Origin: Lysinibacillus sphaericus
GTDB taxonomy: Bacteria; Bacillota; Bacilli; Bacillales_A; Planococcaceae
DNA length: 64,000 nt
Direction: 5' to 3'
Assembly: GCF_006864135.1 (NCBI RefSeq)
Contig: NZ_SADV01000009.1
Location: 124,001-188,000, forward strand
The notes under the pieces were generated by a model, which was not told the DNA's origin, made no database searches, and saw nothing but the letters and a program-made list of their open reading frames with translations. Of this stretch, positions 1,610-54,534 are shown in pieces. The position numbers were made by a program, and so were the translations under genes. Position 1 is the stretch's first letter. Every line of letters begins with the position of its first letter.

Positions 1610-4368
1610 TGACTATAAATGCTCCTTCCCCGTTTTCAAAAAAGCAACAGCTTCGTATTCATGCAGCACAGGAAGGATATTTTACGTTACAGGGATATAC
1701 TGCTGATGGTGCAGCAATGGAAGCAGACTCACTCATTTCTTCATTATTTTTTAACTATGAAGCGAATGTCTATGGTTTATTAACCAATCGCTCAGAACGT
1801 ACGATTGAAGTTTCAACCTCTGAGCTCCTTGATATTTTTTCACGGCGCTATCTGCATCCTTTTATTGACTGGCAAGGTACGAACACAGAAAGTCAGGTTT
1901 GGCTAGAAAAAGTGTCTGCTTTACAAACGTATTGGCAGGAGCCCTCGCTCTGGTCACACGCAGTAATTGCAGATGATTTTTCCACGCTAACATTCCCTAT
2001 AGAAGGTGAAGATACAGCTTTATTAGAAACGGCAGTGCAGCAAAAACTAGCTCAAGTAGGTCTTATACTGTCTGATTTACCAAAACTAATGCCATTTTTC
2101 TTGCGTGGTGGTTGGCCACTAGAGCAAGAACGACAGGCAGGTGCAGTTACTGTCTCCCTACGCTTAGGTGAGCCTGAGGAAGATTCAGATGTTTGGCTTT
2201 TAGAAACAGTACTAAGTACGCCTACAGCCAAAAACTACTGGACGCCAGCTATGCGAAAGCAGTCACTACCAATTGCTGATGCTCTACCGGCAAAATGGCA
2301 AATGTATGCTGATGCTATTGAACAACAACAAAGACAAATTGTAGATCTTCTTTCTATTGAAGATTTACGTAGCGATATTTTCATCCGCATTATGCTTGAC
2401 GATTTACAAGTTCGAACATTTTTACGTGAAGATTTAGCAAGATTACAAGCACTCGGCTTTGACGTTGTACTACCGGCTTGGCTAAAAGATTTAAAACAGT
2501 CAAAAATGCGTGTTCGCGTAAGTACTGGCAATGTAGCGACAAAAAAGGTTGCTGGACTAGATGATATTTTAACGTTTAAATGGCAGTTTTCTATGAATGG
2601 CCAGTCCATTTCACCTGAGCAATTTAAAAAGCTTGTAGATGAGAAACGCGAATTCATTCGTATTGGTACAGAATGGTTCCGAGTCGATGCGAACTGGATG
2701 CAAGAAATGCGTGCATTGATGCAGCAAGCAGAAGATGAAAGCTGGACCGTTCGCGAATTACTATTCCGTGAACTACCAGAGGATTTATCCTTACCTCTTG
2801 AAGAAGAAGATGCCGATGATGCAATGCGAGATGACCCGATTTTTGCATTTGAATTGCAAAAATCGCTGAAATCCTATATGGAGCAGCTTCAGGAGAAAAA
2901 AGGACTCCCTACTGTACAGGTTCCTACATCTTTGCAGGCAGAATTACGTCCTTATCAGCATGAGGGCTTTGAATGGCTTGTCTTTATGCGAGAACAAAGC
3001 TTTGGTGCATGCCTAGCTGATGATATGGGTCTTGGTAAAACAGTTCAGCTTATTTCATATTTACTTCATCTTTATGATACAACTGAGGATTCAAAACCAT
3101 CCATCATTATTTGCCCTACGTCTGTACTAGGCAACTGGCAAAAGGAACTTGCTCGTTTTGCTCCTTCCTTGAGTGTGCATACGCATTATCAGGCGAATCG
3201 AGCAAAGGAAGACGCTTTTAAACAGCTAGTAGGAAGAGAAAAACCACATGTGATTTTATCTACCTATGGCACGGTATCACAGGATGCAGAGTTTTTACAG
3301 GAAGTAGAATGGGCAACCGTTGTGCTAGACGAGGCTCAAAATATTAAAAATATGCAAACGCTACAATCAAGGGCTATTCGTAAATTACAAGGGACGCATC
3401 ATATTGCTTTAACGGGTACGCCAGTAGAAAACCGTTTGTCGGAGCTATGGGCAATTTTTGACTTTATCCATAAGGGCTATTTAGGTAGCTTCGGTCGCTT
3501 TAATGAAGAATTTATTTTACCGATAGAACGAGATGAGTCTGAGTCACATAAACAGAAGTTACGTGCAAAAATTCAAGCATTTTTACTTCGTCGTACAAAG
3601 CGTGACCCACACTTACAGCTTAACTTACCAGATAAACAAGAGTCTCATGAATACTGCCCATTAACAACTGAGCAAGCATCTCTATACGAAGGATATATAT
3701 TAGAGACGCTCGATCAGCTGGAGCAATTAACAGGCTTTCAAAAGAAGGGACGCGTCTTAAAGATGCTCAGTAAGTTAAAGCAATTATGTAATCATCCTGC
3801 CTTGTATTTAAAAGAACCTTTCGAGGATGCCGAATCAATGCTTACTCGTTCTACGAAATTAGAACGTATCGTGCAAATGGCTACAGAAATCGTGGACAAC
3901 GGCGAGCAGTGCCTCATTTTCACACAATATATTGGAATGGGGCAATTACTACAGCATTGTTTTAGTGAACTATATAATATTGATGCACCTTTCTTAACAG
4001 GTGCAATGCCTAAGCAGCAGCGTGACCGCTTAGTTGAGACTTTCCAGGCAGGAGATTTTCCTATATTTATCCTTTCCTTAAAAGCGGGTGGAACAGGGCT
4101 CAATTTAACAGCAGCAAATCATGTATTACACGCAGATCGTTGGTGGAATCCTGCCGTTGAAAATCAAGCGACAGACCGTGCATATCGAATTGGCCAAACA
4201 CAATTTGTACAAGTGCATAAGTTTGTTACAATTGGTACTATCGAAGAGAAAATTGATAAAATGCTAGCCCAAAAATCTGCACTATCAGAAGAACTAATTC
4301 AATCAAGCCAGTGGTTAACTGAATTAGAAGATGACGAACTTCGTGATTTAATGAAACTCGATTTTTAA
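1606..4368 (+). CDS. ywqA: SNF2-family DNA helicase/ATPase, YwqA-like
   Basis: A 920-residue Swi2/Snf2 ATPase. The N-terminal 450 residues are a bacterial SNF2-associated region. The motor follows: motif I DDMGLGKT, motif II DEAQ (VVLDEAQNIKN), motif III ALTGTPVENR, and the C-terminal lobe with motif V (AGGTGLNLTAANHV) and motif VI (QATDRAYRIGQ). Enzymes of this kind translocate on duplex DNA and displace or remodel bound proteins, for example RNA polymerase; the target here is unknown. The length matches B. subtilis YwqA. It begins inside the stop codon of the upstream SWIM gene and ends before a clear intrinsic terminator, so the pair forms a two-gene operon. Confidence 0.93.
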   Translation: MMTINAPSPFSKKQQLRIHAAQEGYFTLQGYTADGAAMEADSLISSLFFNYEANVYGLLTNRSERTIEVSTSELLDIFSRRYLHPFIDWQGTNTESQVWLEKVSALQTYWQEPSLWSHAVIADDFSTLTFPIEGEDTALLETAVQQKLAQVGLILSDLPKLMPFFLRGGWPLEQERQAGAVTVSLRLGEPEEDSDVWLLETVLSTPTAKNYWTPAMRKQSLPIADALPAKWQMYADAIEQQQRQIVDLLSIEDLRSDIFIRIMLDDLQVRTFLREDLARLQALGFDVVLPAWLKDLKQSKMRVRVSTGNVATKKVAGLDDILTFKWQFSMNGQSISPEQFKKLVDEKREFIRIGTEWFRVDANWMQEMRALMQQAEDESWTVRELLFRELPEDLSLPLEEEDADDAMRDDPIFAFELQKSLKSYMEQLQEKKGLPTVQVPTSLQAELRPYQHEGFEWLVFMREQSFGACLADDMGLGKTVQLISYLLHLYDTTEDSKPSIIICPTSVLGNWQKELARFAPSLSVHTHYQANRAKEDAFKQLVGREKPHVILSTYGTVSQDAEFLQEVEWATVVLDEAQNIKNMQTLQSRAIRKLQGTHHIALTGTPVENRLSELWAIFDFIHKGYLGSFGRFNEEFILPIERDESESHKQKLRAKIQAFLLRRTKRDPHLQLNLPDKQESHEYCPLTTEQASLYEGYILETLDQLEQLTGFQKKGRVLKMLSKLKQLCNHPALYLKEPFEDAESMLTRSTKLERIVQMATEIVDNGEQCLIFTQYIGMGQLLQHCFSELYNIDAPFLTGAMPKQQRDRLVETFQAGDFPIFILSLKAGGTGLNLTAANHVLHADRWWNPAVENQATDRAYRIGQTQFVQVHKFVTIGTIEEKIDKMLAQKSALSEELIQSSQWLTELEDDELRDLMKLDF

Positions 4369-5289: not shown

Positions 5290-5512
5290 CTATCATCAAT
5301 GATGCATCGGCATAATTGATGCTGACACTTTGCTTTCGCTACAGAATACATTTGCCGTTGTCGCGCAGATATACAATGCGTCTGGAATCGGTGAAAGCGC
5401 AAGGCTAACTTAGCGGCAGCAACATGAGGTCCGACACGATGTCGGCCATTACGGTAATGCCACGTGAGCACCTCTATTTCAGCGGATGTTGAAAAGTGAC
5501 TTAATACCGCTT
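5290..5512 (-). repeat. Hairpin-rich interspersed repeat, copy 1
   Basis: This occupies the gene-free stretch between ssbB and ywpF. Recognisable modules are the hairpin CCGAC-ACGAT-GTCGG (5431-5445), the palindrome CATTACGGTAATG (5447-5459), CTCTATTTCAGCGGATGTT near 5472-5490, and a conserved end hairpin around GATGCATCGGCATAATTGATG (5307-5327). The same modules recur near 54.4, 44.5, 39.1 and 7.9 kb. The surrounding bases 5127-5289 and 5513-5580 hold nothing else that I can identify. Confidence 0.65.
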
Positions 5513-11189: not shown

Positions 11190-11560
11190 TTCAGCACTTT
11201 TTTGACTCATCGCCTATCATGCGGTTGTTTTCCGTTCCGAATGAGCGCTTTGTGTTGCTGCCGCTTCGTTATACTGCGCTTTCGCACAGTTAAAACATTT
11301 GTTGCTGCCGCTTCGTTACACTGCGCTTTCGCACAGTTAAAACATTTGTTGCTGACGCCTCGCTTTCGCGAAGAGCAATGCTTCTTGGGGCGTCGGGGCA
11401 ACAGGCGTTTTTTGTGCGAAAGCGTAGCGGCAGCAGGATGTTGGTCACGAAGCCGTTATCCTAGGACGTAATGCTTTTAGTCTTTTTACCCCTACACGCT
11501 TCGCTCTAGGGTCTCATCTATGACACTGTGATCTAAAAGGAATCGCCCATTATCCACTAC
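11190..11560 (+). repeat. Interspersed repeat, copy 3, with a 47-bp tandem array
   Basis: The mbl-spoIIID gap is filled by a diverged type A element. A left arm (TTTTCCGTTCCGAATGAGCG near 11228-11247) leads into 47-bp direct repeats starting at 11252, 11299 and 11346 (the third diverges). They contain TTGCTGCCGCTTCG and GCTTTCGCACAG. An inverted unit (GTGCGAAAGCGTAGCGGCAG near 11416-11435) follows, then a right arm with GATGTTGGTCACGAAG and ATCGCCCATT. Bases 11561-11633 hold nothing recognisable. Confidence 0.65.
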
Positions 11561-13989: not shown

Positions 13990-14200
13990 TAAAACGTATG
14001 CCATGCTATTAGTTGATTGGAGTGGAGGCTGGGCGACTCCTTGGGGATCAGCGATAGAGGAACGAATGCTAAAAGCATCACATCCTGTGATAACGCCTTC
14101 GTGACCAACATCGTGTTGGCCCGATACCCTGCAGCGCAGCGCGAAGCGGCAGCGGCAAAGCGCCCAGCTGGAACGGAAATCAACCTCACGTTATGAAGAT
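13990..14200 (-). repeat. Type A interspersed repeat, copy 4 (full-length, inverted relative to 53.9-54.2 kb)
   Basis: The element has imperfect terminal inverted repeats: GTTGATT at 14012-14018 and GGCTGGGCG at 14027-14035 on one side, CGCCCAGC at 14161-14168 and AATCAAC at 14178-14184 on the other. Internal hairpins include CCAACATCGTGTTGG (14105-14119) and ATCACATCCTGTGAT. Its reverse complement matches 53860-54238 nearly base for base, except that it carries only a stub of the 35-bp array. It fills most of the spoIID-murA gap. Bases 13860-13985 show no other feature. Confidence 0.75.
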
Positions 14201-14239
14201 AACCAATTATAAAACTCTCCCTAGCATGGATTAAACTAA

Positions 14240-38899: not shown

Positions 38900-39215
38900 G
38901 ATACTGAAAAGACTCGCATTAGGCATTTAACTTCTTTCAGCTACAGCAGTCTCCCACCTCTATAGCTGGTGAGGTGAATGCGGATTTAAGCTACTTTTCA
39001 GCTGTCTCCAAACACCCACTGAAAGAAGTTAGGCCTCCGGCGGATGTCACGGAATCGGAAAGGAGTTCTTAGAGGATGTTCACCTAAAATCATCGCATCC
39101 ATGCGATAACGGCTAACTGACCTGCATCGTGCCGCAGACGCTACGCTTTGGCGCAAAAAACATTTGCAGTCCTAAGCACAAAGCCGATTCCGGACGCAAT
39201 TATACCGAGGCATAA
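38900..39215 (+). repeat. Interspersed repeat, copy 6 (composite)
   Basis: This fills the tdk-rpmE gap. In order: CAGTCTCCCACCTC with a hairpin, CTTTTCAGCTG...CACTGAAAG, GCCTCCGGCGGATGTCACGGAATC, the hairpin ATCGCAT-CC-ATGCGAT (39102-39117), GCTACGCTTTGGCGCAAAA, GATTCCGGACGC, and the end hairpin AATTATACCGAGGCATAATT. The modules and their order match other copies, with an insertion between GCCTCCGG and CCGGACG. Confidence 0.7.
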
Positions 39216-39477: not shown

Positions 39478-39585
39478 ATTCGTTTTCTCCTCTCGCCCTG
39501 AACCATCTGGAACAGAGTATTATCGAACTGTACCTTACATAGCCCGAATATGTCGGCTACATATGTACACGTTGCATACATTGCT

Positions 39586-44454: not shown

Positions 44455-44605
44455 AACGAGTAAACACCCGCTGAAATAAAGGAACTCAGTCTTAGAACGC
44501 CACGTCCTGTGGCAATTTATCTGTACGAAAGCGTAGCGTCAGCACTACGCTTTCGCGCAATAAATATTTGTTGACCTAAAGCCTCCGGGGAATTCACGGA
44601 ATTTA
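44455..44605 (-). repeat. Type B interspersed repeat, copy 8, with inserted palindrome
   Basis: Contains AAACACCCGCTGAAATAAAG, GGAACTCAGTCTTAGAACGC and the hairpin GCCAC-GTCCT-GTGGC (44499-44513). Where the 54.4 kb copy continues, this one has a different 60-bp palindrome (CGAAAGCGTAG...CTACGCTTTCG) and then CCTAAAGCCTCCGG. Confidence 0.7.
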
Positions 44606-53813: not shown

Positions 53814-53859
53814 ATGAAATCCCCACTTTCTCCCCTTAATGTTCTTTATCTGCTCATCT

Positions 53860-54260
53860 TCATAACGTGGGGTTGATTTCCGTTCCGACTGGGCGCTTTG
53901 TTGCTGTCGCTTCGCTTTCGCACAGAAAACATTTGTTGCTGTCGCTTCGCTTTCGCACAGAAAACATTTGTTGCTGCCGCTTCGCTTTCGCTACAGAAAA
54001 CATTTGTTGCTGTCGCTTCGCTTTCGCACAGTCAAAACATTTGCTGCCGCTACTTTAACACTTCGCTTTCGCACAGAAAACATCCGCAACGCTGCAGGGT
54101 CTAGGGCCAACACGATGTTGATCACGAAGGCGTTATCACAGGATGTGATGCTTTTAGCATTCGTTCCTCTATCGCTGATCCCCGAGAAGTCGCCCAGTCT
54201 CCACTCCAATCAACTTATTTACATCGCATACGTTTTTACCAAAAACTATCCCCTACTTTT
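53860..54260 (+). repeat. Type A interspersed repeat, copy 9, with a 35-bp array
   Basis: Terminal inverted repeats: GTTGATT (53872-53878) and GACTGGGCG (53887-53895) on the left, CGCCCAGTC (54191-54199) and AATCAAC (54208-54214) on the right. Units starting at 53898, 53933, 53968 and 54004, with a fifth diverged one to 54088, share GTCGCTTCGCTTTCGCACAG. Then come the stems CCAAC/GTTG (54107-54120), ACGAAGGC/GCATTCGT (54124-54164) and ATCAC/GTGAT (54135-54149). The element lies between tetR and icmF. Confidence 0.8.
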
Positions 54261-54279
54261 GGTGATGAGCTTTTTTATA

Positions 54280-54470
54280 CATCAATTTCGCCTTGGCGTA
54301 ATTGCGTCCGGATTTTGAAATGTGCGGGCACAAGTCATTCCTTTCAAAATCCGTGCCATCCGCCGGAGGCTTTAGGCCAACATGATGTTGGTCACTCAGT
54401 CGTTGCCATAGGACGTGGCGTTCTTAGACTGAGTTCCTCTATTTCAGTAGGTGTTTGGACACCCAATGAA
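54280..54470 (-). repeat. Type B interspersed repeat, copy 10 (full-length)
   Basis: In plus-strand order: hairpin ATTTCGCC-TT-GGCGTAAT (near 54287), GCGTCCGG, an 11-bp hairpin GGATTTTGAAA/TTTCAAAATCC, GCCGGAGGC, the stems CCAAC/GTTGG (54377-54391), ACTCAGTC/GACTGAGT (54394-54434) and GCCAT/GTGGC (54405-54419), and the end hairpin near GGTGTTTGGACACC. It directly follows the type A copy. Confidence 0.8.
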
Positions 54471-54534
54471 AAGGATCCACATCGGCATTTATCTCCTCAC
54501 CTTCAAAGATCGGCGTCAACTGCTGGATGAAGAT

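Follow-up and report, generated by a model that had tools for sequence, protein, structure and literature searches.

The folded repeats in the window (the whole 64,000-nucleotide stretch of Lysinibacillus sphaericus DNA that was analysed) are members of the known folded RNA family Bacillaceae-1 (RF01690), the function of which is putative. We consider it highly probable that each element is a 67-nt folded Bacillaceae-1 module carried inside short non-autonomous transposable elements, and that the fold is kept on one strand. The main carrier in the genus would be a miniature inverted-repeat element (MITE) with the inverted ends GG.TCATCACCAAAA, which an ISL3-family transposase would move in trans into A+T-rich sites with duplication of an 8-bp target. 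The module would sit in the middle of the inner palindrome of the carrier and be gained or lost there, and selection would act on the folding of a single strand, the complement of the Rfam-modelled strand being the more probable one. This explanation is based on the element ends, the target duplications, the empty sites and the congener ISL3 genes flanked by these ends; transposition is inferred from them. An earlier sequence-only reading had proposed either selection on a folded RNA or DNA form or a palindromic mobile element. The two alternatives appear to hold together, and the folded molecule may be RNA or DNA. The carriage by ISL3-type MITEs, the gain or loss of the module, the evidence from strand mismatches and the co-occurrence with csrA are new here; no paper linking Bacillaceae-1 to MITEs or ISL3 was found in a literature search that covered few subscription journals.

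Bacillaceae-1 modules in the window and in other genomes

Seven modules or parts of modules were located in the window:

54107..54173, minus strand: Bacillaceae-1 module, type A (RF01690, 67.5 bits)
54377..54443, minus strand: Bacillaceae-1 module, type B (RF01690, 70.7 bits)
14053..14119, plus strand: Bacillaceae-1 module, type A (RF01690, 69.7 bits)
39068..39135, plus strand: Bacillaceae-1 module, diverged (RF01690, 44.4 bits)
44476..44515, plus strand: type-B-like module, 5' part only (nhmmer E 3.5e-5)
11432..11484, minus strand: partial module (nhmmer E 2.5e-10)
5431..5470, plus strand: degenerate remnant with a single clear hairpin, CCGAC/GTCGG (sequence, by eye)

In the Rfam search the four full copies scored 44.4-70.7 bits, above the gathering threshold of 35. 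Bacillaceae-1 has been in the literature since 2010, listed among candidate structured RNAs and marked as not cis-regulatory (PMC2864571), and the view that the repeats match no named family was rejected. The stems named in the sequence-only reading were found at or beside the positions it gave; it had read the plus strand, and the Rfam model corresponds to the minus strand of both 54-kb copies. Its copies at 54.1-54.44, 14.05 and 39.07 kb are full RF01690 modules. The one at 44.5 kb proved to be partial, spanning model positions 2-41 with 24.6 bits against RF01690, below the cut-off, and the one at 5.4 kb is a remnant without an Rfam match; the partial module at 11.4 kb was absent from its list. 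Compared by eye with a relative in locus L003, the 5.4-kb remnant looks like the hairpin CCGAC/GTCGG followed by a deletion, and the CATTAC/GTAATG pair there is probably not homologous to stem 2 of the other copies. Additionally, an L31-Firmicutes ribosomal protein leader (RF03156, 34.4 bits) was detected at window positions 39487-39517.

The genome from which the window comes (5.12 Mb in 71 contigs) contained at least 149 matches, at least 136 of them above the RF01690 cut-off, when the best 150 of 716 candidates were scored. As the 149 matches do not include the 39-kb window copy, the true copy number is higher. Copy number was patchy among 31 congeners under stricter filters, with no copy at E 1e-5 in eight genomes and at least 45 copies in another eight. 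In the class as a whole Bacillaceae-1 was present in 67 of 299 genomes and in 31 of 118 genera, and eight further copies are annotated in Bacillus subtilis (PMC8208703). Closely spaced modules were also seen: head-to-tail copies with a 66-bp period at L246 (approx. 4099-4231), reaching the end of the available sequence, and two modules 88 bp apart in the own genome (G000:C22:192884-193038), with equally spaced pairs in G003, G024 and G025.

Covariation of the stems and the strand that folds

GTDB contigs were scanned with a pattern that fixed the loops and joints and left every stem base free. At least 117 stretches from many Bacillales genera were retrieved, giving 123 copies, of which 119 were distinct. 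Single linkage at five differences placed these in 51 clusters, and one representative per cluster was aligned. Among the 867 stem cells 93.9% were paired, versus 67.0% in shuffled alignments, and none of 500 shuffles reached the observed value. Two-sided changes were found in 232 cells versus 62.9 in the shuffles. The shuffles leave relatedness in; the slid controls, which preserve it, paired in only 30-38% of cells. All three stems of Bacillaceae-1 are backed by covariation well beyond chance, and the earlier claims that both arms changed together and that a folded form is under selection were borne out on stems left free in retrieval. The pattern of change suggests that selection preserves the fold of one strand.

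The strand in question was approached through mismatches. On the Rfam strand the 119 sequences contained 82 A-C mismatches versus 14 G-U pairs, a direction in which the shuffled columns leaned likewise (214 versus 145). Counts by cluster were made on 174 distinct sequences from all available loci; clustering ignored the first six bases, which gave 164 clusters at zero differences. A-C exceeded G-U by 72 to 25 in 87 clusters, by 57 to 23 in 53 clusters (sign p 1.8e-4) and by 29 to 18 in 20 clusters (p 0.14), the strand preference dropping on merging. For the 51 representatives pairing was 96.3% on the complement versus 93.9% on the Rfam strand and covariation 0.741 versus 0.689, and the predicted folding energy was lower on the complement in 42. 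A neighbouring pair on the complement was U-G or U-A in 51 of 51, one side of it being fixed by the search pattern. The complement of the Rfam-modelled strand is the likelier folded strand, favoured, not decisively, by mismatches and folding energy.

Variants within the own genome (74 copies) gave a mixed result across the stems and were discarded as a strand test. On the Rfam strand stem 1 held nine G-U pairs versus two A-C mismatches, opposite in direction to the cross-genus counts, stem 2 three versus four, and stem 3 two versus 16, a figure raised by alterations at the ends of the stem. Orientation beside rRNA genes was contradictory and was likewise discarded: next to 16S genes the Rfam strand was antisense in L194 and sense in L151 and L233. 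The L194 copy, from Bacillus haynesii (approx. 201-267), lies directly upstream of the 16S rRNA gene with its complement in the rRNA sense.

These counts bear on the proposal that the product is a small RNA with RUCCU loops, transcribed from the strand that Rfam models and acting by base pairing. The choice of strand in Rfam and the stem-1 variants of the own genome agree with it. The excess of A-C over G-U across genera in the 53 clusters and the lower stability of the Rfam strand in 42 of 51 representatives speak against it, and we regard it as improbable.

Probable carriage by ISL3-type elements

When flanks were compared, the module copies were found to lie inside longer repeats. The carriers in the window are:

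53851..54271, minus strand: carrier A, a 421-bp ISL3-type MITE around the 54107 module, with imperfect terminal repeats TGCTCATCTTCATAAC / GGTGATGAGCT
53897..54047, no strand assigned: 35-bp tandem unit TTTGTTGCTGTCGCTTCGCTTTCGCACAGAAAACA in 4.2 copies, within carrier A (sequence)
14012..14203, plus strand: partial carrier A around the 14053 module, ends approximate, by eye; left terminal repeat not found
54281..54532, minus strand: carrier B around the 54377 module, sharp ends, by eye

Units resembling the 35-bp TTTGTTGCTGTCGCTTCGCTTTCGCACAGAAAACA recur in variable number in other genome copies of the carrier.

At least one terminal repeat, beginning with GG, was present at a lenient score in 62 of 96 distinct own-genome copies, and 32 elements had both at a stricter score. 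The 8-mers flanking these 32 two-ended elements were identical on both sides in 15 and matched at 7/8 or better in 19, compared with a mean of 0.90 and a maximum of 5 for mispaired flanks (2000 shuffles). The remaining 13, including the element at 53851..54271 (6/8), matched at 6/8 or less. Flank identity peaked at a length of 8, and the left target 8-mers were 84% A+T. With one mismatch allowed, the terminal pattern occurred 117 times in the own genome versus once for the reversed control. Some elements had the same ends without the module, the smallest being 136 bp long. Inverted ends starting with GG and 8-bp duplications are typical of ISL3.

A candidate enzyme was found in relatives. Among 28 congener PF01610 (ISL3) loci scanned, 11 were flanked on each side by the end pattern with at most three mismatches (L295, L296, L297, L299, L301, L306-L310 and L313). 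The L296 element is 1316 bp long and contains a 397-codon frame, and no matching 8-mers were seen at its own flanks. The own genome contained ISL3 fragments only; its remnants were rejected as partner, as no end pattern was detected at no more than three mismatches in the two stretches read, L113 and L114. The own-genome copies may therefore be silent, or may rely on an enzyme since lost. Of the earlier mobile-element alternative, the palindromic carrier with target duplications and the matching transposase stand, the latter in relatives.

Orthologues of the 54-kb site were read at 13 congener loci (L275-L287). Ten were empty, one (L281) was a bare remnant, and two (L278 and L275) had the carrier without the module, L275 additionally retaining part of carrier B. 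At the same junction the window reads GGGTCTA, module, GCTGATCCCC and L278 reads GGGTCTCATCTGTGACGCTGATCCCC. Since different species have this carrier insertion either with the module or without it, the comparison indicates that gain or loss of the module took place within a carrier already resident. The 14-kb site was also read at 13 loci: L261 (G028) aligned throughout, L264 (G018) had the module in inverse orientation and L265 contained module pieces; no module was seen in the other ten. At a second own site, L019, with the duplication TTTCGAAT, G024 lacked the element and had a single diverged copy of the target. One and the same bacterial MITE insertion can thus occur with a covarying RNA module or without it.

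Carrier B looks different. Neither a terminal inverted repeat nor a target duplication was seen by eye, and it adjoins ATAA (TTAT on the other strand), to which five of the ten empty sites also align there. In these respects it resembles a Y1-type insertion. A Y1 transposase partner was sought and rejected in the own genome, where no PF01797 match was found. In other genera the module lies, by eye, inside other palindromic repeats. The ISL3 assignment concerns the type-A carriers.

The features of carrier B raise a further alternative, namely that the only role of the hairpins is in single-stranded DNA, during transposition by a Y1 (IS200/IS605) enzyme. It would account for the sharp ends, for the lack of an inverted repeat or duplication by eye and for a start beside TTAT or TTAAC, and PF01797 matches were present in four of the eight congeners with at least 45 copies (G005, G007, G018 and G025). 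However, the other four (G003, G015, G024 and G028) had none, nor did the own genome, and the type-A carriers behave as ISL3 elements. We judge this alternative very unlikely, and retain the MITE-borne module with a fold under selection as the preferred explanation.

Possible role of the module

If the module has a role beyond carriage, it does not appear to act on neighbouring genes. Of 123 copies, 29 had an overlap with a mechanical frame and 16 were situated at the edge of a locus; the 78 that could be placed were oriented ++ in 24 cases, -- in 22, +- in 22 and -+ in ten. A cis-regulator of neighbouring genes was rejected, as no codirectional preference was observed.

The same lack of preference, together with the patchy copy numbers among congeners, would fit an inert sequence that travels with the MITE. 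The strong covariation across genera and carriers argues against inert cargo, as does the lower diversity of the module compared with a carrier arm (0.054 versus 0.138 in 54 copies), a comparison that is biased because copies were found via the module. Inert cargo seems unlikely to us.

Under the preferred explanation transcription of the complement strand would start at its own promoter or result from read-through, and the hairpin loops of that strand, which contain GGA, might bind a host RNA-binding protein, for which CsrA is the best, though tentative, candidate. Gardner and Eldai in 2014 noted that the Bacillaceae-1 reverse complement matches the CsrA-binding motif twice, with the strand uncertain, and proposed CsrA binding (PMC4333381). 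In such a model, which extends the explanation given above rather than excluding it, the GGA loops would face CsrA dimers and the dispersed copies would titrate CsrA.

The better folding of the complement (42 of 51), its better pairing and the G-U pairs it holds agree with this model. The complement-strand loops read AGGAY and A[GC]GAU. The AGGAY of loop 1 was fixed by the search pattern. Loop 2 reads AGGAT in 70 of the 119 named-genome sequences; against the model, it is ACGAT, without GGA, in 34, and 59 of 74 type-A-like own copies have G at position 61 (CGA on the complement) and there no GGA in loop 2. csrA was present in 64 of 67 Bacillaceae-1-positive genomes versus 115 of 232 negative ones (Fisher p 1.5e-13), and within relatives in 50 of 50 positive versus 37 of 51 negative genomes (p 4.3e-5); both comparisons are confounded by phylogeny, which csrA presence tracks. 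G137, G243 and G313 have Bacillaceae-1 copies and no csrA match. The evidence modestly strengthens the older proposal, which we regard as less likely than not and which becomes directly testable in Bacillus subtilis.

A more speculative extension, to which we give little weight, is that Bacillales transposons have spread a putative CsrA-binding hairpin pair to more than 100 sites in one genome, where MITE-borne decoys in many transcripts might buffer CsrA or another GGA-binding protein.

Comparison with known systems

The elements resemble RF01690 in sequence, in the three stems, in the conserved loops and in scoring above the family cut-off. They differ in their MITE carrier, which goes unmentioned in the Rfam model and in the literature consulted on the family, and in strand, since Rfam models one strand and the cross-genus mismatches found here favour the other. 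The present analysis connects this orphan Rfam family with an abundant mobile repeat and adds sequence evidence on which Bacillaceae-1 strand folds.

With ISL3-family insertion sequences and MITEs the elements share the GG-start inverted ends, the 8-bp duplications and, in congeners, PF01610 genes flanked by these ends; they differ by the covarying folded module, which is present or absent within one insertion. TwoAYGGAY (RF01731), which is listed with Bacillaceae-1 among the candidate CsrA-binding families (PMC4333381), is reported from Clostridia and had no match in the window.

The sponge RNAs CsrB, RsmY and RsmZ likewise present GGA in hairpin loops, which here lie on the complement strand. 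The window gave no hit to these RNA families at gathering score. The hairpin loop of CsrB is of the CAGGA type. Unlike these RNAs, Bacillaceae-1 has two hairpin loops per module, one of them often without GGA, and occurs in more than 100 dispersed copies. If the decoy model were true, the MITE-borne modules would be a Gram-positive, transposon-built counterpart of CsrB.
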